The notes beneath the pieces are model-generated. The model did not search any database and was not told the DNA's origin. It was given only the letters and a program-made list of their open reading frames with translations. Positions 29,236 through 64,000 of a stretch of DNA of 64,000 nt are shown here, in pieces. The DNA is from Hydrogenophaga sp. (GTDB lineage: Bacteria > Pseudomonadota > Gammaproteobacteria > Burkholderiales > Burkholderiaceae_C). The position numbers and the translations under genes were made by a program. Position 1 is the stretch's first letter. Each line of letters opens with the position of its first letter. The stretch covers positions 1-64,000 of the forward strand of contig NZ_JAUSOO010000061.1 in NCBI RefSeq assembly GCF_030656115.1. The letters are read 5' to 3'.

Positions 29236-30027
29236 ATGACCCGAAACATCCAGCAACTCTTCGACCTCACAGGCAAAACAGCCCTCATCACCGGTGGCTC
29301 TCGCGGCCTGGGCCTGCAAATGGCTCATGCGCTGGGCGAAGCCGGTGCCCGGGTGGTGATCAGCTCGCGCAAGGCCACCGATCTGGAAGAAGCCACGGCC
29401 GAGCTGCAGGCTGCGGGCCTGGATGCGCGCTGGATCGCCGCCGACTGCTCGCTCGAGGAAGACATTCGCCGCCTCACCAGCGAAACCCTGCAGCGCGTGG
29501 GCGACGTGGACATTTTGGTGAACAACGCCGGCGCCGCCTGGGGCGCCCCGGCCGAAGACCACCCGCTCGAAGCCTGGGACAAGGTGATGAACCTGAACGT
29601 GCGCAGCTACTTTTTGCTGAGCCAGCTGATCGCGAAGGCCAGCATGATCCCGCGCAAGAGCGGCAGCATCATCAACACCGCCTCCATCGCCGGCCTGGGC
29701 GGCAACCCCTCGGGCATGAAAACCATTGCCTACAACACGTCCAAAGGCGCGGTGATCAACTTCACCCGTGCGCTGGCCGCCGAGTGGGGCGAACATGGCA
29801 TCCGCGTCAACGCCATCTGCCCGGGCTTCTTCCCCAGCAAAATGACACAAGGCACGCTCAAGGCCATGGGCGAAGAGAAGCTGGCTTCGCACGCGCCCCT
29901 GCGCCGCCTGGGCGACGACGAAGACCTGAAGGGTTTGACGGTGCTCTACGCCTCCGACGCCGGCAAACACATCACCGGTCAGTGGCTGGCGGTGGACGGT
30001 GGCGTCAGCGTGATCACGGGAGGCTGA
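29236..30027 (+). CDS. Short-chain dehydrogenase/reductase
   Basis: A 263-residue NAD(P)-dependent oxidoreductase. The nucleotide motif TGGSRGLG lies near residues 18-25, NNAG near 95-98, the catalytic Ser in NTASIAG near 147, and the YNTSK active site near 163-167. The carboxy-terminal GQWLAVDGGVSVITGG is typical of 3-hydroxyacyl or gluconate-type SDR enzymes. An AAGGAG ribosome site precedes the ATG at 29236; the in-frame upstream codons are read through the repeat and are not used. The substrate is probably an acyl intermediate, from context. Confidence 0.93.
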   Translation: MTRNIQQLFDLTGKTALITGGSRGLGLQMAHALGEAGARVVISSRKATDLEEATAELQAAGLDARWIAADCSLEEDIRRLTSETLQRVGDVDILVNNAGAAWGAPAEDHPLEAWDKVMNLNVRSYFLLSQLIAKASMIPRKSGSIINTASIAGLGGNPSGMKTIAYNTSKGAVINFTRALAAEWGEHGIRVNAICPGFFPSKMTQGTLKAMGEEKLASHAPLRRLGDDEDLKGLTVLYASDAGKHITGQWLAVDGGVSVITGG

Positions 30028-30456
30028 GTGGAATTTTCGGTTCACATCCCTTTTGTCGAACATCTCGGCTTTGAATTGCGCACGTTCGAAGGCGGCGAGG
30101 CGGAAATCGCTTTTGCGCCCCGGCCCGAGCATGAAAACTCGTTCAACGTGGTGCACGGCGGCGCCAGCATGACCCTGCTGGACGTGGTGATGGCGCACGC
30201 CGCGCGCAGCGTGGAGCCCGCCATGGGCTGCGTCACCATCGAGATGAAAACCAGTTTCATGCGTGCCGCCAAAGGCCCACTGCTGGCCAAAGGGCGCCTG
30301 TTGCACCGCACCGCCACCATGGCGTTCACCGAAGGCAGCATTTTTGACGCGGCCGGCAAGCTCTGCGCCCACGCCACCGGCACGTTCAAGTTCGTGGCCC
30401 GCCTGCCTGTGGGTGGTAAATCCACCCAAGCCCTCAACACCATCAAGACCGACTGA
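30028..30456 (+). CDS. Hotdog-fold thioesterase, PaaI-like
   Basis: A 142-residue thioesterase whose GTG start follows the preceding stop codon directly. FNVVHGGASMTLLDVVMAHAAR at about residues 36-57 is the hotdog helix with the catalytic Asp, and EMKTSFMRAAKGPLLAKGRLLH near 72-93 forms the following strands. It is the second PaaI-like enzyme in the catabolic block; the sequence differs clearly from the one at 23663, so they probably serve different acyl-CoAs. Confidence 0.88.
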   Translation: MEFSVHIPFVEHLGFELRTFEGGEAEIAFAPRPEHENSFNVVHGGASMTLLDVVMAHAARSVEPAMGCVTIEMKTSFMRAAKGPLLAKGRLLHRTATMAFTEGSIFDAAGKLCAHATGTFKFVARLPVGGKSTQALNTIKTD

Positions 30457-30485
30457 TCGGCCTTTTACCCCCGGAGACACCCCCC

Positions 30486-31502
30486 ATGCCCACCAACCAA
30501 CAAATCGTGCTCGACAACCGCCCCCAAGGCGAAGCCACGGTCAGCAACTTCAAGCTGGTCACCACCGAAACCCCGGCTTTGGCCGACGGACAGGTGCTGG
30601 TGCGCCACCACTACCTGAGCCTGGACCCCTACATGCGCGGGCGCATGAACGACAGCAAAAGCTACGCGGCCTCGCAGCCGCTGGGTGAGGTCATGATCGG
30701 CGGCACCGTGGGCGAGGTGGTTGAATCCAAACACCCCAAGCTCAAGGCGGGTGACCCGGTGGTCGGCATGGGTGGCTGGCAGCAATACAGCGTGGTGGAC
30801 GCCACGCAACCCGGCGCGCTGCGCAAGGTGGACACCACCCACGTGCCGCTGTCGTATTACCTGGGCGCGGTCGGCATGCCCGGCGTGACCGCCTGGTACG
30901 GCCTGGTGAAGATCATCAACCCCCAAGCCGGTGAAACCATGGTGGTGAGCGCCGCCACGGGCGCGGTGGGCAGCGCCTTTGCCGCCCTGGCCAAGGCGCG
31001 CGGCTGCCGCGTGGTGGGCATTGCCGGTGGGCCGGACAAGTGTGCTTATGCGGTCGATGAATTGGGTTTTGATGCCTGCATCGACTACAAGCTGCACCCA
31101 GACATGTATTCGCTGGCCAAGGCGCTCAAGCAGGCCTGCCCGAACGGCGTTGACGGCTATTTTGAAAACGTCGGGGGCATGGTGCTCGACGCGGTGTTGC
31201 TGCGCATGAACGCCTTTGGCCGCATCGCCGTGTGCGGCATGATCGCCGGCTACGACGGCCAGCCCCTGCCGCTGGCCAACCCGGCGCTGATTCTGGTGAA
31301 CCGCCTGAAGATGGAGGGCTTCATCGTCAGCGAGCACATGGAGGTGTGGCCCGAAGCCCTGACCGAGCTGGGCACGCTGGTGGCCACCGGCAAGCTGCGC
31401 CCGCGCGAGACCATTGCGCAGGGCATCGAGAACGCGCCCGAGGCTTTCCTGGGCTTGCTCAAAGGCAAGAACTTTGGCAAGCAGCTGGTCAAGCTGATTT
31501 GA
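30486..31502 (+). CDS. Zinc-free NADP-dependent oxidoreductase (CurA/MDR type)
   Basis: A 338-residue medium-chain reductase without zinc ligands. HYLSLDPYMRGRMND near residues 39-53 and GAVGMPGVTAWYGL near 125-138 are typical, and the nucleotide site is VSAATGAVGSAFAALAKARGCRVVG near 157-181. YFENVGGMVLDAVLLRMN near 221-238 is a family marker. Members reduce the double bond of enones and 2-alkenals. A GGAGA ribosome site precedes the ATG. It closes the plus-strand catabolic block. Confidence 0.93.
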   Translation: MPTNQQIVLDNRPQGEATVSNFKLVTTETPALADGQVLVRHHYLSLDPYMRGRMNDSKSYAASQPLGEVMIGGTVGEVVESKHPKLKAGDPVVGMGGWQQYSVVDATQPGALRKVDTTHVPLSYYLGAVGMPGVTAWYGLVKIINPQAGETMVVSAATGAVGSAFAALAKARGCRVVGIAGGPDKCAYAVDELGFDACIDYKLHPDMYSLAKALKQACPNGVDGYFENVGGMVLDAVLLRMNAFGRIAVCGMIAGYDGQPLPLANPALILVNRLKMEGFIVSEHMEVWPEALTELGTLVATGKLRPRETIAQGIENAPEAFLGLLKGKNFGKQLVKLI

Positions 31503-31514
31503 GTGGTTGGGCGG

Positions 31515-31539
31515 GCAGAACAACGAGCACGTGTTCTGC
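31515..31539. terminator. Bidirectional hairpin between convergent genes
   Basis: GCAGAACA and TGTTCTGC form a perfect eight-base stem with a nine-base loop, and a GTTTAAAC sequence follows. It lies in the 39-base gap between the oxidoreductase gene and the convergent TRAP permease gene, so it probably ends both transcripts. Confidence 0.6.
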
Positions 31540-31541
31540 GT

Positions 31542-33389
31542 TTAAACGCCCAGCACCACACCCGGCAGCCAAGTCGACAAAAACGGCAGCAGCGACAACG
31601 TAAGCACACCCAAAAAGATGGCCAGTGCTGCGGGCAGCACGGCCACCGCCACCTCGCGCAGCGATTTGCGGAACATGGCCGATGAAAAATACAGGTTCAT
31701 GCCCGAGGGCGGCGTCAAATAGGCCAGCTCCAGATTGGCCAAAAAGATGATGCCGAAATGCACCGGGTGGATGCCGTAGGCCAGCGCAATGGGCAGCAGC
31801 AGCGGCACCAGCACCACGATGGCGGCGTAAATTTCCATCAGTGCGCCGGCCAGCAGCAAGAACAGGTTGAGCGCAATCAAAAACGCCCATTTGTTGGGCA
31901 ACACCGATTGCACCCATTCAATGGCCAGGTCGGGAATGCCCGCGTCCACCAGGTAATTGGTCAGTCCCAGCGCCATGCCCAAAATGAGCATGATGCCGCC
32001 GATGACTTGCGCGCATTCGGTGAATACGCGCAACACGCCGCGCCCGTCCAGTTCGCGGTGCAGCAGGCATTGCGTCAGCAGCGCATAGGCGGCGGTCAAG
32101 GCGGCGCTTTCGGTGGGGGTGGCAAAGCCGCCCACCAGCGAGCCCACGGCCACCACGGGCGCCAAAATTTCCCACTTGGCGGCCCAGGCCGCGCTGCGGG
32201 CGCCGGCCATGTCGGGGCGCGCTGCGGCCAAGGCTTCGGATTGGGTAGTCAGGCCGCCTCGGCGCAAATAGCCGCCCACCACCAGCAGAAAAAACACCAT
32301 CACCAGCGCGGGCAACACGCCGGCCAGAAACATGGTGTTGATGGGCACGCGGGCGATGATGGCGTACATGATGAGCGGCACCGACGGCGCCAGCAGCACG
32401 CCCAGCGCGCTGGCGCTGGTGACCAACCCAATGCCGCGCCGCTCGGGAAACCCGGCCTTCATCAGCAAGGGCAGCAACAGGCCGCCCAGCGCCAAGATGG
32501 TGACGCCACTGCCGCCGGTGAGCGCTGTGAAGCACGAACACAGCACCGCAGCGGCCACCGCCGTGCCTTTCACCCCGCCGCCAAACAGCGCGGTGAACAG
32601 CACGCCCAACCGGGCCGCTGCGCCGGTGCGGGCAAACACCAGACCGGCCAGCGTGAACAGCGGCAGCGCGGGCAACGACGGGTTGACCGTGATTTGGTAA
32701 TGGCTCAGCGGCACGGCGGCCAGCGGTTGGCCTTCGCTCCAAAACAGCGCCAGCGCCAGCCCGCCCAACACGGTAAACACCGGCGCGCCGCACAACAGCA
32801 ACAGCAGCAGACCCAAGGCAAAAGGCCACAGCGCCAGCGTGTGGCCGTCAAACTGCCCGGCAAACAGCCAACCCAGCAGCGGCAACAGCAGCGTTGCCAC
32901 ACGCAGCGAAAGTTGAAAGCGCCCTTCAGGCCATTCCAGCCGCCAGGCAAAGCGCAGCCCCAGCCACACAAACCCCAAGGGCATGGCCGCAATGAACACA
33001 ACGCCCGGTATGCCGTAGGCAATGGGGCGCGGCACCTGCATTTCGGCCAGCCAAAAACTGGCGCTGGCCTGCGCCAGCATGCCGCAGAGCAGCGCCGAAC
33101 CGGTGCGTGCCCACAGGGCCGCCAGGCGGCGCAGGCGCGGGTCGGCTGAGCCCGCCAAGCCAGCACCCAGCGACGTGAGGTGCCCGCCGCGTTCGGCCAC
33201 CAGGGCGCCAAACATGGCCAACACCAGCCCGGCGTGTTGCACAAACACGGGCGCGTTGGCAATGCCCATGCCCAGCAGCGGGCGCATCAGCATCTCAATG
33301 AGCGGCAGGGCCAGCATCAGCGCCAGCGCAGCCCCGGCCAACACGGCGTCAAACGGCCACAGCGCCGGGCGGCGCAGCACGGTCACCAT
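31542..33389 (-). CDS. TRAP transporter fused permease (DctQ-DctM)
   Basis: A 615-residue inner-membrane protein. Residues about 1-165 contain four helices of a small DctQ-type subunit (FVQHAGLVLAMFGALVAERGGHL is the conserved helix). Residues about 180-615 form the large DctM-type subunit with GGSGVTILALGGLLLPLL, the TSASALGVLLAPSVPLIMYAI block and LANLELAYLTPPSGMNLYFSSAMFR near the end. The family drives uptake with a sodium gradient. The fusion forces one-to-one stoichiometry. It is expressed with the receptor and a TatT-like lipoprotein. Confidence 0.93.
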   Translation of the reverse strand: MVTVLRRPALWPFDAVLAGAALALMLALPLIEMLMRPLLGMGIANAPVFVQHAGLVLAMFGALVAERGGHLTSLGAGLAGSADPRLRRLAALWARTGSALLCGMLAQASASFWLAEMQVPRPIAYGIPGVVFIAAMPLGFVWLGLRFAWRLEWPEGRFQLSLRVATLLLPLLGWLFAGQFDGHTLALWPFALGLLLLLLCGAPVFTVLGGLALALFWSEGQPLAAVPLSHYQITVNPSLPALPLFTLAGLVFARTGAAARLGVLFTALFGGGVKGTAVAAAVLCSCFTALTGGSGVTILALGGLLLPLLMKAGFPERRGIGLVTSASALGVLLAPSVPLIMYAIIARVPINTMFLAGVLPALVMVFFLLVVGGYLRRGGLTTQSEALAAARPDMAGARSAAWAAKWEILAPVVAVGSLVGGFATPTESAALTAAYALLTQCLLHRELDGRGVLRVFTECAQVIGGIMLILGMALGLTNYLVDAGIPDLAIEWVQSVLPNKWAFLIALNLFLLLAGALMEIYAAIVVLVPLLLPIALAYGIHPVHFGIIFLANLELAYLTPPSGMNLYFSSAMFRKSLREVAVAVLPAALAIFLGVLTLSLLPFLSTWLPGVVLGV

Positions 33390-57234: not shown

Positions 57235-58101
57235 ATGAGCACCCTGAAACGCACCGACTTTCGCTTTTTCCACCGCATGCGCGTGCGCTGGGCCGAGGTG
57301 GACATGCAAAAGATCGTGTTCAACGCCCACTACCTCATGTACTTCGACACCGCCATTTCGGATTACTGGCGTGCGCTGTGTCTGCCGTACCAGGACACCA
57401 TGGACGCGCTGCAAGGCGACCTGTACGTGGTGAAAGCCACGGTCGAATTTCACGCCTCGGCGCGGGTGGACGACCAGATTGAGGTGGCCATGAAGTGCAG
57501 CCGCATTGGCAGCTCGTCCATGACCTTCACCGGCGCCATTTTCCGGGGCGACGAGTATCTGATCACCGGCGAAATCGTCTACGTGTTCGCCGACCCCGCC
57601 ACCCAAAAATCGCGCCCGGTGCCGCAGGCCCTGCGCGACATCATGCTGGGTTTTGAAGCGGGCGAAGCCATGAGCGCGGTGAAAGTGGGCGCCTGGAGCA
57701 CGCTGGGGCCTGATGCACAGCGCATCCGGACCGAGGTGTTTGTGCAAGAACAGCGCATACCCAAAGAGCTGGAATGGGACGCGGCCGACGCCAGCGCCAT
57801 GCACGCCGTGGCCTACAACCGCCTGGGCGTTCCCGTGGCCACCGGGCGCTACCTGGACAAGGGCGATGGCACGGTGAAAGTGGGTCGCATGGCGGTGAAC
57901 CGCGTGCTGCGCGGCGGCAGCCTGGGCCGCGACGTGCTGCACGCCCTGATGCACGCAGCCCTTGAACACGGCGCAACCGAGGTGGTGCTGTACGCCCAGC
58001 GCAGCGCCCAAGGTTTCTACACCCGTCTGGGCTTTGAATGCCGGGGCGAGCCGTTTGTGGAAGCGGGCATTGACCATGTGGAGATGGTCAAAAGCCTTTG
58101 A
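57235..58101 (+). CDS. Thioesterase-acetyltransferase fusion (YbgC-like hotdog plus GNAT)
   Basis: A 288-residue two-domain protein. Residues about 10-138 form a YbgC/FadM-like hotdog domain (RVRWAEVDMQKIVFNAHYLMYFD, read in parts, with the catalytic D and H/N positions). Residues about 148-288 form a GNAT domain opening VGAWSTLGPDAQRIRTEVFVQEQRIPKELEWD (read in parts), with VGRMAVNRVLRGGSLGRDVLHAL as the acetyl-CoA site and FYTRLGFECRG near 260. The gene begins right after the hydrolase stop. One domain could hydrolyse and the other transfer acyl groups from CoA; substrates are unknown. Confidence 0.92.
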   Translation: MSTLKRTDFRFFHRMRVRWAEVDMQKIVFNAHYLMYFDTAISDYWRALCLPYQDTMDALQGDLYVVKATVEFHASARVDDQIEVAMKCSRIGSSSMTFTGAIFRGDEYLITGEIVYVFADPATQKSRPVPQALRDIMLGFEAGEAMSAVKVGAWSTLGPDAQRIRTEVFVQEQRIPKELEWDAADASAMHAVAYNRLGVPVATGRYLDKGDGTVKVGRMAVNRVLRGGSLGRDVLHALMHAALEHGATEVVLYAQRSAQGFYTRLGFECRGEPFVEAGIDHVEMVKSL

Positions 58102-58142
58102 GGGCACTGCGTACCTGTGGGGGGCCACCGCTGCGGCCCTGT

Positions 58143-59087
58143 CTATCCACCCTTGCCAAGCCCTTGCTCGAACCGGGCTTGCAGATTGGCACCGGAGACC
58201 TCCAGGTAGCGCATGGCCGACTTGACGTCTTTCCAGCCCACGTATTCCATCAGTTCCTTGATGTCCCAGCCGCTGGCTCGGGCCCAGCCTGCGAAGCCGC
58301 GGCGCATGGAGTGGCTGCTGTATGCCTGGGGCGAATCGACACCCGCTTCTGTGAACAGGCTGCGCAGCACCGGGATCAAGCTGCTGGCATGCAGGCCTTC
58401 CTCACCCAGGTGCCCCCAGCGGTCGATTTTTCGGAACACGGGGCCCTCGGTCAAACCGGTCAGCTCGATCCAGTCGTTGAAGGCGCTCACGGGACACAGG
58501 CGCGATAACGCCGGGCATTTGAAGACGCGCCCCTGCAGCTGCCGGTCGGTCTTGCTGCGACCCAGGTAACAGGTCATGCCCTGGTCGGGGGTGACTTCGG
58601 TGTGTTCCACGCGCAGATGGACCAGCTCGTCGGAGCGAAAGCCACGCCAAAAACCCAGCAGCATCAGGCTGCGGTTGCGCGTGTGGCGAAGCAAGGCCTG
58701 CTGGTCACCGGTGCTGCGGGCCTGCTCAATGGCAGCGCCGAGCCACGCATCCACCTGCTGAAGCACCACCAACTCCAGAGGCCGTGCCCGCTTGTCTGGC
58801 ACGGCGTGGACCGCACGAATGCCTTTGAGAACCTGGCGCACCAACGGCGACTTGGTGGGGTCTGGAAAGCCGTGGTCGGCATGCCAGCGCGACAGCGCCG
58901 CCAATCGCTGGCGCAGCGTGTTGATGGCGTGTGTCGCGGCGTGGTCGGCCAGGTAGCGGGCCATGGCCTCGGCGGTGGACGGCAGCAAGCCCTTCCACTC
59001 GATTTCGAAATGGCGAACAGCGGAAGCGTAACTTTTGCGCGTGTTGTCGCGCTCTGCCGCCTGGAGGTACTGGTCCACACGGTTCAT
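58143..59087 (-). CDS. Tyrosine recombinase / site-specific integrase
   Basis: A 314-residue recombinase. An amino-terminal SAM-like DNA-binding domain (about 1-95) precedes the catalytic domain with R151 (FRSDEL), K179 (RSKTD), H259 and R262 (SHSMRRGF), W285 (VGW) and the nucleophile Y294 (MRYLEV). All catalytic residues are present. The ATG at 59087 matches the family; an open frame runs 42 codons further upstream to 59213. It is transcribed away from the KfrA-like gene across a 347-base control region. No phage or plasmid genes surround it. Confidence 0.92.
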   Translation of the reverse strand: MNRVDQYLQAAERDNTRKSYASAVRHFEIEWKGLLPSTAEAMARYLADHAATHAINTLRQRLAALSRWHADHGFPDPTKSPLVRQVLKGIRAVHAVPDKRARPLELVVLQQVDAWLGAAIEQARSTGDQQALLRHTRNRSLMLLGFWRGFRSDELVHLRVEHTEVTPDQGMTCYLGRSKTDRQLQGRVFKCPALSRLCPVSAFNDWIELTGLTEGPVFRKIDRWGHLGEEGLHASSLIPVLRSLFTEAGVDSPQAYSSHSMRRGFAGWARASGWDIKELMEYVGWKDVKSAMRYLEVSGANLQARFEQGLGKGG

Positions 59088-59434
59088 GGGCGGGCGCTGT
59101 GGCGGGCGTGAAAAAACCGCTGGAGGTTTTGGCTTGGGATCTTGATCTTCATCGTGGCGCGCATTGTCTACCGTGGCTGGTCTGAAAACGTGTTTTTCGA
59201 TCACTTCGATCACTTCGCGCCCTCACGCAGCCCGCTTCTCACTTTCCCCACCCCTAAAACGCCTTTTCATCGCACGGCATGCGCCAGCGCGCCTGTCCAC
59301 GTGGATTTCGCGGATCACCACAAATAATCAACCATTACTCTATGTGATTTTATATAGAAATGAAATTTTCTAGAAGATAAAATAGTATGTAATATCATAT
59401 TACGTACTGTAGTATGAAATAACCGAGGCAACCC
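59088..59434. promoter_or_regulatory. AT-rich divergent control region with a 21-bp palindrome
   Basis: The region between the recombinase and KfrA-like genes has a 21-base palindrome at 59386-59406 (arms TATGTAATAT and ATATTACGTA around a central C, 9 of 10 pairs matching). A second, weaker one (TAGAAA...TTTTCTA, 59355-59372) lies just upstream. The direct repeat AGTATG occurs at 59384 and 59411. CGATCACTT is repeated twice near 59198-59215. KfrA proteins repress their own promoters, so the palindromes are probable binding sites. No gene is visible here. Confidence 0.6.
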
Positions 59435-60541
59435 ATGGCCAGAGCCGGAATCTACAAATCTGAGGTGGTGCGCGCACGCGATAGGCTGCTGGCCAGCGGG
59501 CGCTATCCGTCGATTGATGCGGTGCGCGAAGAACTGGGGAATACCGGCTCCAAGGGCACCATCCACCGCTATCTGAAAGAAATCGAGGAGGAAGAGGGCC
59601 CCGCCACCGGCAGCCGGGTGGCCGTGAGTGAGGCGATCCAGGACCTCGTCGGGCGCCTGGCCTCCCGGGTGAACGAGGAAGCGCAAGAGCGCGTCACAGC
59701 CGCCCAGGCCCAACACGCCGAGCAGATCAGCCAACACGAGCAAGCCGCAGCGGCCCTGAAAGCAGAAGCGCTGTCAGCCCGCCAACAGCTGGAGCAAACC
59801 CAGCGCATGCTGGTCAGTGAAAAGGCGGGGCACTGCAAAGCGAACGAGGCGTTGAGCCGCAAAACCCTGGAATGCACCCAGCTCACCCAGCAGGTGTTGG
59901 ACTTGCAAGAACGCCTTGCAGCTGAGGAGCGGCACCGCCAGTCGCTGGAAGAAAAACACCAGCATGCCCGCCAGGCCCTGGAGCATTTCCGGCAATCCAG
60001 CAAGGAGCAGCGCGAACAAGACCAGCGCAAGCACGAGCAACAGATGCAATACCTGCAGGCCGAATTGCGCTCGGTGAACGAAGTTTTGGCAGGCAAACGG
60101 CAAGAAGCCGTTCACGCCCTGCAAGAGAACGCGCGGCTGTTGGGCGATTTGTCTCGCGCACAGAGCGATCTGCACACCGCACAAGAAGAGGTGCGATCCC
60201 TGCGGCCGCTGAAGGATGCGCTGGGTTTTGCACAGGGGCGCACCGAGGCGCTGGGCCAGCGTCTGGTGGAGCAAGATGCAGCACTGGAGCAGCTCAGCAC
60301 CGCCAAAGACCGGCTACAGGCCTGGGGCGATGGGTTGCTGGCCGAGAAACAGCAGTTGGAACTGGCGCTGGCTGTGGCCAGGGCGTCGGTGGCGGCGCAA
60401 GAAAACATCGTGGCCAGCGTGCTGGACCGCTTTGTGGCGGCTGCAACGGCTTCTGAAGCGGCGGTTAAAAAAACGGAAGTTGAAGCCGAGGGGGAAGAGG
60501 ATGGGGGAGAGGAAAAAATGCCACCGAAAACACAGGCTTGA
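59435..60541 (+). CDS. KfrA-like DNA-binding coiled-coil protein
   Basis: A 368-residue protein. Residues 1-105 form a KfrA-type DNA-binding domain (IYKSEVVRARDRLLASGRYPSIDAVREELG, read in parts, then GSKGTIHRYLKEIEE). Residues about 105-335 are one long coiled coil rich in E, Q, A and L. An acidic tail ends the protein (EAEGEEDGGEEKMPP). KfrA of plasmid RK2 represses its promoter and forms filaments. Here the gene is chromosomal and paired with a tyrosine recombinase. The GAGG ribosome site and ATG at 59435 are clear. Confidence 0.9.
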   Translation: MARAGIYKSEVVRARDRLLASGRYPSIDAVREELGNTGSKGTIHRYLKEIEEEEGPATGSRVAVSEAIQDLVGRLASRVNEEAQERVTAAQAQHAEQISQHEQAAAALKAEALSARQQLEQTQRMLVSEKAGHCKANEALSRKTLECTQLTQQVLDLQERLAAEERHRQSLEEKHQHARQALEHFRQSSKEQREQDQRKHEQQMQYLQAELRSVNEVLAGKRQEAVHALQENARLLGDLSRAQSDLHTAQEEVRSLRPLKDALGFAQGRTEALGQRLVEQDAALEQLSTAKDRLQAWGDGLLAEKQQLELALAVARASVAAQENIVASVLDRFVAAATASEAAVKKTEVEAEGEEDGGEEKMPPKTQA

Positions 60542-60558
60542 ACCCGATTCTGCGGTTT

Positions 60559-61440
60559 TCACCACACCAGTGTTTCGCTGCGGTGCTCGGGCTGCAAGCC
60601 CCCAACGGGCTTGGGCATATTCGGTGCAGCTGCGCTGTGCGCATGGGTCCATTCGTCCAGCTTGACCTGCCACCGCCCAGGCGTGCGTGCATGCGGCTGG
60701 ACGCGCACCACCAAGCTGCTGCGGGTGCCGTAGCCGCGCTCAGGCATGCGCACGAACGGACTGGACAGGTGGCGCTCCAACGCCAGCGCCACGCCGGTGC
60801 TGGGTAAATCCGCGTCAGCGGCCTGCTGCTCGTCAACCAAAGCCGGGGGCAAGTGGGCCCACCAAGGGGTGCCGTTTTCAGCCTGCCCCAGTTTCTCAAG
60901 CGATGAGCCCAGCGCCTGCGTCAGCCGCTGCGTCTTGGGCCACGGGGTGTTCAACGTGGCGTTGGACAAGCCATAAATACCAGCGCCCAAGCGTTGCGTG
61001 TGCAGCCGGGTCGTGTGGGTCGATGGCGCTTGGTGCGGGTTCTGGGGGTCGCGGTTGCCCAGCCAGGCCCAAAAACGCTGGTGAAAATCGCCCACGACCA
61101 GGTTGAAGCCGCCGTAGGCCCCGGGGTCGATGCTGGACTGCAGGGCGTCACCGTCCAGAGCGCCAGCGAGCCAACGCGTGGGCAACTCACCCCGGCTGCG
61201 CTGGGCGGTGCCCGGCTGAGCGTCGCGCACATTGGTCAGCATGGCCACGCGTCCGTTTGGGCTCACACCCAGCCAGGTGCCGCCGTCGCGCAGGTCGCGC
61301 CCGGCCACCACGTCGGAGCCTGAAGGCAAAGACCAGCGGTGCAGTCCCGCGGTGGGGCGGTCCAGAAACTCGTCGCGGTTCGCTGCAATCAGCAGCGGGC
61401 AGGCTGCGTGGGCGTCAATCGCAAAGGCGATCAGGCACAT
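60559..61440 (-). CDS. NRDE family protein (TANGO2-like)
   Basis: A 293-residue protein beginning MCLIAFAIDAHAACPLLIAANRDEF, read in parts, with the NRDE motif at 21-24 and Cys2 that could serve as an N-terminal nucleophile. Further family marks are RDLRDGGTWLGVSPNGRVAMLTNVR near residues 47-71 and SRGELPTRWLAG near 80-91. The ATG at 61440 is chosen because the family begins MC. Animal TANGO2 is linked to heme and lipid homeostasis; bacterial function is unclear. It converges on the KfrA-like gene with a 17-base gap. Confidence 0.93.
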   Translation of the reverse strand: MCLIAFAIDAHAACPLLIAANRDEFLDRPTAGLHRWSLPSGSDVVAGRDLRDGGTWLGVSPNGRVAMLTNVRDAQPGTAQRSRGELPTRWLAGALDGDALQSSIDPGAYGGFNLVVGDFHQRFWAWLGNRDPQNPHQAPSTHTTRLHTQRLGAGIYGLSNATLNTPWPKTQRLTQALGSSLEKLGQAENGTPWWAHLPPALVDEQQAADADLPSTGVALALERHLSSPFVRMPERGYGTRSSLVVRVQPHARTPGRWQVKLDEWTHAHSAAAPNMPKPVGGLQPEHRSETLVW

Positions 61441-61453
61441 GGGTGGATTGCCA

Positions 61454-62419
61454 TTAAATATCGTTGAGCAAAGGGTAGGGCAGTGGCAGCAGGGCCAGCG
61501 CCGGGCCTTGCGGGCCCACCGCGTTGAGCATGCCCGCCTCAGCCGCGCGCGTCTGCATGGACACCACGGCATGCCAGCCGCCGCCCGGGCAAGGCGCAGC
61601 GGCGGCCACGGTGCCGCAAGGTTGCTCGGTGTCGCTGCTGTGAAACACCTCTTGCCCCACGGCCAGCGGTGCATCGGCTTGCACCAGGTAGGCCCGGCGC
61701 TTGAGCGTGCCCCGGAACTGGCTGCGCGCCACCACCTCTTGGCCGGGGTAGCAGCCTTTCTTGAAGTTCACACCCCCCACCGATTCATAGTTGAGCATTT
61801 GCGGCACAAAAGCTTCGAAGATGGGCTGCGTGACCGCGGCCACGCCGCTCATCACATCGAGCCAGGCCCAATGCGCCGTCTCCAACAGCGGGCCTGTGGG
61901 CTGCGGCGCAGCACCGTCCTGCACAGGCAGCACCCACAAGGCTCGTGCCACGCCAGCGCCGGGGTACAGGCGCACACCATGCGCGCCATCGGGCCCGGTG
62001 GTGTGGCTCCACGGCGTTTGCGGCACATCCACCGGCGTCGGCCCTGCCACGCCCCACAGGGCGAACGCATCGCTGGCATCGCTGAGCTTGGCCTGCGCGC
62101 GCAGCACAAACATGGACAAGCGCTTGAGGGTGGCGGGCAACAGGTCGCGGCTGCAGACCAGCAAAATATCGTCGTGGCTGAGCTTGAAGCCCACAAAGCT
62201 GGCTTGCATGCGCCCTTTGGCCGAGCAAAAAGCGGCCAAACGCGCTTCGGACAAGCCCAGGAGTGAAAAGTCTTGTGTGAGCTGGCCGTGCACAAACTTC
62301 GCGGCATCGGCGCCATGGACGCGAATCACACCCAGATGGGGCAGGGGCGCTGCGCCCACCAGGGTTTGGGCATCAAAGACGCGCGCGAAATCGGGGGCTG
62401 TAGCGGGTGCGTTGCTCAT
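61454..62419 (-). CDS. ygfZ: YgfZ folate-binding iron-sulfur repair protein
   Basis: A 321-residue tetrahydrofolate-dependent protein of the GcvT-like fold that helps maintain [4Fe-4S] enzymes. The diagnostic motif KGCYPGQE lies at 221-228 with C223. Other marks are HGADAAKFVHGQLTQDF near 35-51 and CSAKGRMQASFVGFKL near 65-80. It is complete. It lies 13 bases upstream of the NRDE gene on the minus strand and is divergent from mltG. Confidence 0.95.
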   Translation of the reverse strand: MSNAPATAPDFARVFDAQTLVGAAPLPHLGVIRVHGADAAKFVHGQLTQDFSLLGLSEARLAAFCSAKGRMQASFVGFKLSHDDILLVCSRDLLPATLKRLSMFVLRAQAKLSDASDAFALWGVAGPTPVDVPQTPWSHTTGPDGAHGVRLYPGAGVARALWVLPVQDGAAPQPTGPLLETAHWAWLDVMSGVAAVTQPIFEAFVPQMLNYESVGGVNFKKGCYPGQEVVARSQFRGTLKRRAYLVQADAPLAVGQEVFHSSDTEQPCGTVAAAAPCPGGGWHAVVSMQTRAAEAGMLNAVGPQGPALALLPLPYPLLNDI

Positions 62420-62527
62420 GGTGGTGGTTCCATCGTCGTTCAGATGGCTGGATTATGATCACCCGCCCATTGCAGCGTACCCCGCTGTGCACGTACCCCC
62501 TCTCCTTTCCCAGACGCCCAACCTCCT

Positions 62528-64000
<1,473 letters not shown>

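Follow-up and report, generated by a model that had tools for sequence, protein, structure and literature searches.

In the 64,000-nucleotide stretch of Hydrogenophaga sp. analysed here (the window: assembly GCF_030656115.1, contig NZ_JAUSOO010000061.1, positions 1-64,000 of the forward strand; genome label G000), a gene for a tyrosine recombinase and a gene for a helper protein with a KfrA_N DNA-binding domain diverge from a shared intergenic region. We conclude, with a probability of roughly 0.88, that this pair is an orphan module for cointegrate resolution, TnpS-TnpT-rst, which stems from a transposon of the Tn4651 type in the Tn3 family. It is a known module in an unusual, transposase-free state, close to the replication terminus. 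An earlier note on this DNA had described a divergent tyrosine recombinase and a KfrA-like protein, and the open reading frames (ORFs), their orientation and the 347-bp intergenic region were as it had stated.

The recombinase showed 54% identity to TnpS of plasmid pWW0 from Pseudomonas putida over 296 amino acids (aa) in BLASTP, and 51% in the MAFFT alignment, whereas the helper showed 44% identity to pWW0 TnpT over 241 columns (BLASTP) and 36% over the whole MAFFT alignment. The two pWW0 genes are likewise divergent (29463-30461 and 30642-31613) and are labelled in the record as DNA-binding protein and site-specific integrase; from their sizes and order, we take them to be, respectively, tnpT and tnpS of Tn4651. 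Pfam assigned Phage_integrase to the window recombinase (38.5 bits), and KfrA_N both to the helper (90.7 bits) and to pWW0 TnpT (93 bits). Residues R148, R151, K179, H259, R262, W285 and Y294 of the recombinase, presumably catalytic, were invariant in the eight aligned proteins. A GTG extension of this gene to position 59213 is probably unused, because the blastn matches of its relatives end at, or a few bases from, the ATG at 59087. From this homology, the pair belongs to the TnpS/TnpT resolvases and is predicted to serve the resolution of two directly repeated rst sites.

Because pWW0 TnpT is itself a KfrA_N protein, the pair is explained as a transposon resolvase module; for the same reason, the KfrA_N domain pointed out in the earlier note stands, but not its reading of a plasmid-type protein beside a recombinase. 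Plasmid KfrA proteins have this domain and a long helical part. We rejected a plasmid KfrA system, although the domain is present, because the window pair is chromosomal, with conserved chromosomal genes of the genus as neighbours; in addition, its partner is a recombinase. The nearest solved structures to the recombinase were Cre and its variant Tre (about 1e-10), whereas the helper had no PDB match whatever (E up to 0.1). Like XerCD/dif and Cre/loxP, the window system combines a tyrosine recombinase with a short palindromic core, although it has a dedicated helper, and the recombinase scored far under the curated cut-offs for XerC (23.9 versus 335 bits) and XerD (21.9 versus 330 bits), so it is neither of these. 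The available part of PMC7157771 describes TnpT as lacking apparent homology to other proteins. In the open-access literature searched, we found no paper joining KfrA, a tyrosine recombinase and the Tn3 family, and in the text excerpts KfrA co-occurred with TnpT, and with cointegrate resolution, as words used separately; such links may exist in other papers.

The window shares the organization of Tn4651, in which the genes for a tyrosine recombinase and a KfrA_N helper diverge and conserved core and accessory blocks separate the two, although the window pair is chromosomal, lacks a transposase and terminal repeats, and encodes proteins of 314 rather than 323 aa (TnpS) and 368 rather than 332 aa (TnpT). 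Closer relatives occur in Comamonadaceae-type Tn3-family transposons, which share the rst-like region and show 82% (locus L012) and 69% (L034) identity for the recombinase and 75% and 52% for the helper. Unlike the window, both contain tnpA and terminal repeats, and in L012, moreover, cargo separates tnpT from tnpS, and TnpS is extended at its C terminus. The tnpS-tnpT-rst organization is also that of TnXax1, TnXocp1 and TnHdN1 in the literature, all of which possess the tnpA that the window lacks; locus L056 lies in record FP929140, the source of the described TnHdN1.

The AT-richness ascribed to the whole intergenic region in the earlier note is confined to its kfrA-proximal 120 bp (59315-59434), with a guanine plus cytosine (GC) content of 28%, as compared with 59% for 59088-59314. 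Likewise, blastn showed that the sequence from 59324 onward is common to L012, but not 59088-59323. The 21-base palindrome reported in that note is present and symmetric at 18 of 20 positions. Nevertheless, nine places in the 64 kb (itself counted) reached this symmetry or better, and when the AT-rich stretch was shuffled 2000 times, 22 of the results contained an equally good palindrome, so symmetry taken alone is weak evidence. The palindrome rises above chance because 15 other loci, that of pWW0 among them, have a related core upstream of kfrA, and on this conservation we discarded a chance origin. The 16 kfrA-upstream regions, from pWW0 and transposase-free copies among others, aligned over 128 columns, with 14 invariant and a mean identity of 63%, figures given without a shuffled control. 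The alignment contains a GATAAT-type block and, about 35 bp further, an AGTATGTA...AGTACGTAC...AGTACGAAAT core, of which the palindrome is part. Conservation across the 16 loci thus predicts an rst with core and accessory palindromes between the genes. The roles of the two blocks are proposed by analogy with the excerpted text of PMC4619425, which assigns an accessory site to TnpT and a core to TnpS, and reports that the genes between tnpS and tnpT are variable.

Features of the tnpS-tnpT module and its neighbours in the window
Feature	Position	Strand	Basis
tnpS-like tyrosine recombinase, 314 aa	58143..59087	-	homology to pWW0 TnpS, invariant residues
tnpT-like helper with KfrA_N DNA-binding domain, 368 aa	59435..60541	+	homology to pWW0 TnpT
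intergenic region, 347 bp	59088..59434	.	last 120 bp alone AT-rich and common to relatives
rst-like accessory block (TAATCaaCCATTA...), probable TnpT site	59324..59346	+	16-sequence alignment; role by analogy with the available part of PMC4619425
rst-like core region, holding the palindrome	59380..59421	+	16-sequence alignment, pWW0 among them
21-bp imperfect palindrome, probable TnpS core	59386..59406	+	conservation, symmetry
left neighbour, 4HBT thioesterase-GNAT fusion gene, outside the unit	57235..58101	+	Pfam
right neighbour, TANGO2-family gene, outside the unit	60559..61440	-	Pfam

The two genes occur together across genomes. Among 399 genomes of the family (thresholds of E up to 1e-30 for the helper and 1e-60 for the recombinase; five candidates scored per genome, so that counts are lower bounds), the helper was found in 18, the recombinase in 17 and both in 16, the window genome included (Fisher p 1.8e-25; 3.7e-24 without the window genome). 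In 15 of these 16 genomes the pair shared a contig, always divergently and 0.23-56 kb apart, and in the remaining one (G238) it was split between two contigs. Within the genus (67 genomes), nine others had a strong helper match, nine a strong recombinase match and seven both, counting partial ones; in a class-wide survey the helper appeared in 5 of 369 genomes, including the window's. The survey of co-occurrence and orientation proposed in the earlier note therefore reveals a recurrent pair, divergent around a conserved site, and neither confined to this genome nor always at a single locus.

A contig scan returned 175 recombinase relatives, of which we kept the best 80 loci. These were up to 84% identical to the window recombinase and came from many genera, some with identical upstream DNA across genera or in several copies within a genome. 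A Tn3 transposase match lay within the fetched stretch in 66 of the 80 loci, and DDE_Tnp_Tn3 was confirmed by Pfam in all four transposases tested; the remaining 14 loci had no match, some because of contig ends. The kfrA N-terminus was within the stretch in 15 of the 80 loci, divergent from the recombinase every time. L034 represents a minimal transposon of 6,093 bp, with the order TIR-tnpT-tnpS-tnpA-TIR (TIR, terminal inverted repeat). L012 has 37-bp TIRs (92% identical), a 5-bp duplication (CTTCA), tnpT, cargo, tnpS and tnpA; cargo often lies between tnpT and tnpS in these transposons, here a Gp49/HTH_37 toxin-antitoxin pair and mer-like genes (mer by eye). In the window clade, transposon-borne TnpS proteins are often longer at the C terminus, by about 120 residues with ...HEPATDTYWD at their end (L012:6931-7296, and likewise at many further loci); this extension had no Pfam match in the single one tested (L012).

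In a quick tree, the source of all tree figures given here, the window recombinase was placed within a 28-row clade (SH-aLRT 99) whose other 27 rows have no transposase-free label. The eight copies labelled transposase-free (the window, L072, L079, L080 and L230-L233) required six label changes, at least five of them forced by supported branches, which fits several origins of transposase-free copies, gains not being told from losses.

The unit fits tightly between its neighbours, with 41 bp on the left (58102-58142) and 17 bp on the right (60542-60558), margins that follow from the ORF ends and agree with the earlier note; also as that note stated, no phage- or plasmid-type gene was recognized among the immediate neighbours tested with Pfam. 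A phage origin was rejected, since in PHROGs the recombinase matched three integrase families plus one whose function is unknown and the helper matched no family; so was a defence origin, because PADLOC returned a weak ZorA match alone (E 0.0022), for the helper. Matches to the two flanking genes lie on one contig in 59 genomes of the genus, including the window's, and are adjacent (gap of up to 333 bp) in 51. The eight non-adjacent cases include the window; G010, with a split 4HBT match and a 664-bp gap; G039, G061, G030 and G057, with one large ORF type by eye, identified as Wzy_C in G039, the sole one tested with Pfam; G032, with 2.4 kb of intervening DNA; and G025, with TRAP-transporter-like ORFs by eye. 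The gap thus holds differing genes by species: a Wzy_C-type ORF, TRAP-like ORFs or the tnpS-tnpT pair.

Since no other genome of the genus having both flanking genes on one contig showed a recombinase or helper match at this site, the pair is, within the genomes sampled, an insertion confined to the window lineage. The earlier note had proposed a search for empty sites: an exact pair of occupied and empty sites was not found in close relatives. In the nearest genome by flank, G062, similarity to the window ends after 58091 and TANGO2 has no match. A search of the window contig found no copy of the Wzy_C-type gene of G039; the pair may have replaced such a gene or inserted separately.

A profile search of the whole window genome found no Tn3 transposase (PF01526). 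A complete Tn3-family transposon was thus rejected: a transposase, TIRs and an assignable 5-bp duplication were not found. The test for terminal repeats used the L012 repeat and a self-comparison of the flanks; the best direct repeat across the flanks was one of 29 nt (72%, E 0.034), inside both neighbour genes. Several points weigh against derivation from a transposon. The assembly, in 190 contigs, is 97% complete, so the absence of the transposase is not certain; a search of the 145-kb contig for a tnpA remnant returned a single match at chance level (E 0.29); the L012 terminal repeat matched the flanks at background (17-19 of 37; background mean 16.9, maximum 21); no target duplication could be assigned at the window pair; and the C-terminal extension seen in many transposon copies is absent from the window TnpS. 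As none of the repeat, tnpA remnant and duplication was found, arrival by transposition is argued from phylogeny and context.

Other genomes harbour the pair without a transposase. Among 18 genomes searched for Tn3 transposases, 10 had a match and eight further genomes did not. Seven of these eight contain the pair (G185, G407, G088, G322, Pseudomonas sp. R37 (G827) and the Microbulbifer genomes G828 and G829), whereas G445 had the helper alone at the threshold used. In G088 and G322, other genes lie between recombinase and helper. Across the stretches compared, three Microbulbifer genomes have little more in common than the two genes, although the third, G830, has Tn3 transposases elsewhere, and the Pseudomonas pair lies between gor-like and ahpC-like genes (by eye). 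The transposase-free tnpT of G088 (L232:8180-10614), a genome of another genus, is beside ygfZ-like and mltG-like genes (by eye), close to the chromosome dimer resolution site dif; the window pair is near counterparts of these genes (61454-63541), also close to dif.

In G185 and G407, which belong to one genus, the pair is flanked by the same ligase-like and hrpA-like genes, with an extra gene in G407. Their ratio of non-synonymous to synonymous substitution rates (dN/dS) was 0.157 for the recombinase (43.8 synonymous and 22.2 non-synonymous changes) and 0.139 for the helper (40.7 and 21.3), suggesting selection in the transposase-free state if the ancestor already lacked the transposase. The window recombinase showed dN/dS of 0.102-0.159 to six relatives, as compared with 0.055-0.099 for four pairs of relatives, and an end branch of 0.22 versus 0.014-0.12 for other rows of its clade; dN/dS of the window helper was not raised (0.156-0.166 versus 0.149-0.228 among relatives). 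Window-specific substitutions at codons invariant in 20 siblings (four synonymous and two non-synonymous, at 43 codons) were too few to be informative.

To locate dif, we used the motif ACRATGTNTATTATGTNAA, read from these genomes, which occurred exactly once in 31 of the 36 genomes searched, its reversed control never occurring (G199 and G832 look like one genome). We take it as dif because it fits the published dif of Rhodoferax ferrireducens in the accessible part of PMC2731167. In the window genome, dif is at C6:69671, 9.1 kb to the right of the pair; this site (C6:69671-69689) has an unusual right arm, TTATGTATAGT, and the variant ATTATGTATA is common to G015 and G028. In G185 and G322, the sign of the GC skew switches at dif, whereas for the window contig the skew was uninformative.

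In a hand-made list, 11 of 28 loci were within 45 kb of dif, against 0.58 expected (p about 4e-12); the limit was chosen after seeing the distances, and loci on contigs other than that of dif were counted as far. Excluding five loci whose closeness was known beforehand left 6 of 23, against 0.47 expected (p about 5e-6). Whether G350 counts as near depends on its transposase being part of the element, and without this locus the figures become 10 of 28 (p about 1e-10) and 5 of 23 (p about 9e-5). The list omits, for want of a dif match, G412, G039 and G828-G830, and the dif search covered genomes other than G009, G020, G021, G038, G040, G042, G055, G238 and G341, which also have matches. Far loci on the contig of dif were those of G361 (903 kb), G019 (137 kb) and G834 (1299 kb). 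Separately, the dif motif lay within the stretch in 3 of the best 80 loci (0.2 expected, p about 0.001; reversed control 0), among them L022, the G416 case. In that genome, 284 bp separate dif from the start of the transposase match in an element with tnpS and tnpA (L241:2831).

Both kinds of copy are found near dif. The transposase-free pairs are 9.1 (G000), 14.8 (G322), 28.7 (G185) and 39.9 kb (G088) away, and that of Microbulbifer G829 about 35 kb (from a dif match with three mismatches); seven transposase-bearing loci, including G350, are 0.3-40 kb away. Because transposase-bearing copies are near dif too, the known insertion bias of the Tn3 family for the terminus is the simplest reason for the position of both kinds, and probably accounts for it. 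The available portion of PMC8116780 reports 24 of 29 Tn1 insertions around the terminus of Acinetobacter baylyi, and cites a terminus preference of Tn917 in Bacillus subtilis and Enterococcus, but not in staphylococci. The clustering lacks a matched control for other mobile elements; as a control, unlinked Tn3 transposases were too few (G302, G369 and G834). The last, HdN1, has a Tn3 transposase fragment about 5 kb from dif (C1:4235442), its tnpS/tnpT transposon being distant.

A mechanism can be proposed for the module. TnpT combines the KfrA_N domain with a long helical part, probably a coiled coil; it would attach to the accessory block and help core-bound TnpS dimers to bring two directly repeated rst sites together. 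Strand exchange by TnpS, through the tyrosine mechanism, would follow, and the two proteins, when bound, may also regulate the two divergent promoters. In a transposon, such a module resolves the replicative cointegrate. As to origin, the module probably came with a transposon that integrated close to the terminus, in the gap between two convergent genes; tnpA, both terminal repeats and whatever cargo there was would have been lost later, while the module itself stayed intact. At present, the module could act on sister chromosomes, resolving dimers, or on incoming DNA with a matching rst, and on nothing else.

Why the two genes are still there allows several explanations. The leading one, at somewhat under even odds, is that they are a neutral remnant, a decayed transposon whose last two genes have not yet been lost and bring no benefit to the host. 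This agrees with the lack of a pair match at the site in the other genus genomes with both flanking genes on one contig, and with the long end branch and the tendency to higher dN/dS of the window recombinase. However, the putative catalytic residues are all in place, neither the rst-like core nor either ORF is damaged, dN/dS lies far under 1 and is not raised for the helper, and transposase-free pairs recur in other lineages, with evidence of constraint in G185/G407 (0.157 and 0.139). Considered by itself, the window copy is more likely a remnant in slow decay, because of the long recombinase branch and the somewhat raised dN/dS, not shared by the helper. It is rather unlikely, in contrast, that selection keeps the module near dif as an auxiliary terminus system, resolving chromosome dimers or integrating or resolving incoming rst-bearing DNA. 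The five transposase-free pairs near dif (G000, G322, G185, G088 and G829), the purifying selection in G185/G407 and the ability of Cre/loxP to replace dif, at the terminus only (available parts of PMC2731167 and PMC2680272), would suit such a system. Yet the seven transposase-bearing loci near dif show that the position needs no host function, in 9 of the 13 genus genomes the empty site, too, lies 8.8-11.9 kb from dif (17-141 kb in the remaining four), G407 and G827 have the pair on a contig other than that of dif, and the window genome has a dif. In addition, the same sources indicate that Res/Tn3 could not replace dif (PMC2731167), so a topologically selective resolvase may fail, and that the zone of dif activity in Escherichia coli extends about 10 kb to each side (PMC2680272), with four of the five listed pairs lying farther. 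A role in chromosome maintenance, as raised in the earlier note, is possible, and the 9 kb to dif make it testable.

The same note had also suggested a two-gene mobile unit. The family is indeed mobile within transposons, but mobility of the two genes alone does not follow, without transposase or terminal repeats and with the core mid-unit. An autonomous unit inserting between genes is accordingly very improbable, even though tight pairs without a nearby transposase occur at unrelated places in three Microbulbifer genomes, a Pseudomonas and G185/G407. One of the Microbulbifer genomes, G830, has Tn3 transposases elsewhere; the best terminal-repeat matches were unconvincing (E 0.007 for L067 and about 0.03 for L230 and the window, uncalibrated), the window's lying inside the two conserved neighbour genes; and close relatives offered no exact empty and occupied site. 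The earlier note had proposed to look for a recombined core; the core was found to be internal, which led us to reject a site-specifically integrated element, as there is no recombined core (att) at the ends, and insertion by recombination at rst, which should have left core halves there. The most far-fetched possibility is a partition or nucleoid protein of the KfrA type that merely happens to adjoin a recombinase: the KfrA_N match of 90.7 bits speaks for it, but the helper is homologous to TnpT together with a partner homologous to TnpS, and the two genes co-occur far beyond chance.

Identification as a TnpS-TnpT-rst module gives the KfrA-recombinase pair a concrete identity and shows that TnpT carries a KfrA_N domain. 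It also indicates that a resolvase module can outlive its transposon in several lineages. That TnpS/TnpT loci of natural genomes cluster near dif parallels the laboratory data for Tn1 and Tn917, as given in the accessible text of PMC8116780, and raises the question of whether a captured transposon resolvase takes part in chromosome dimer resolution. The part of PMC2731167 at hand reports no evidence for Cre/loxP-like systems in proteobacteria deficient in dif/Xer, from which the genomes studied here differ in having dif. We consider it unlikely, but worth stating, that transposase-free TnpS-TnpT-rst modules are a recurrent, host-retained second system of site-specific recombination at the terminus, repeatedly delivered near dif by Tn3-family insertion bias, trimmed of the transposon and kept by selection; if this were true, the module would be a natural counterpart of the engineered replacement of dif by Cre/loxP.

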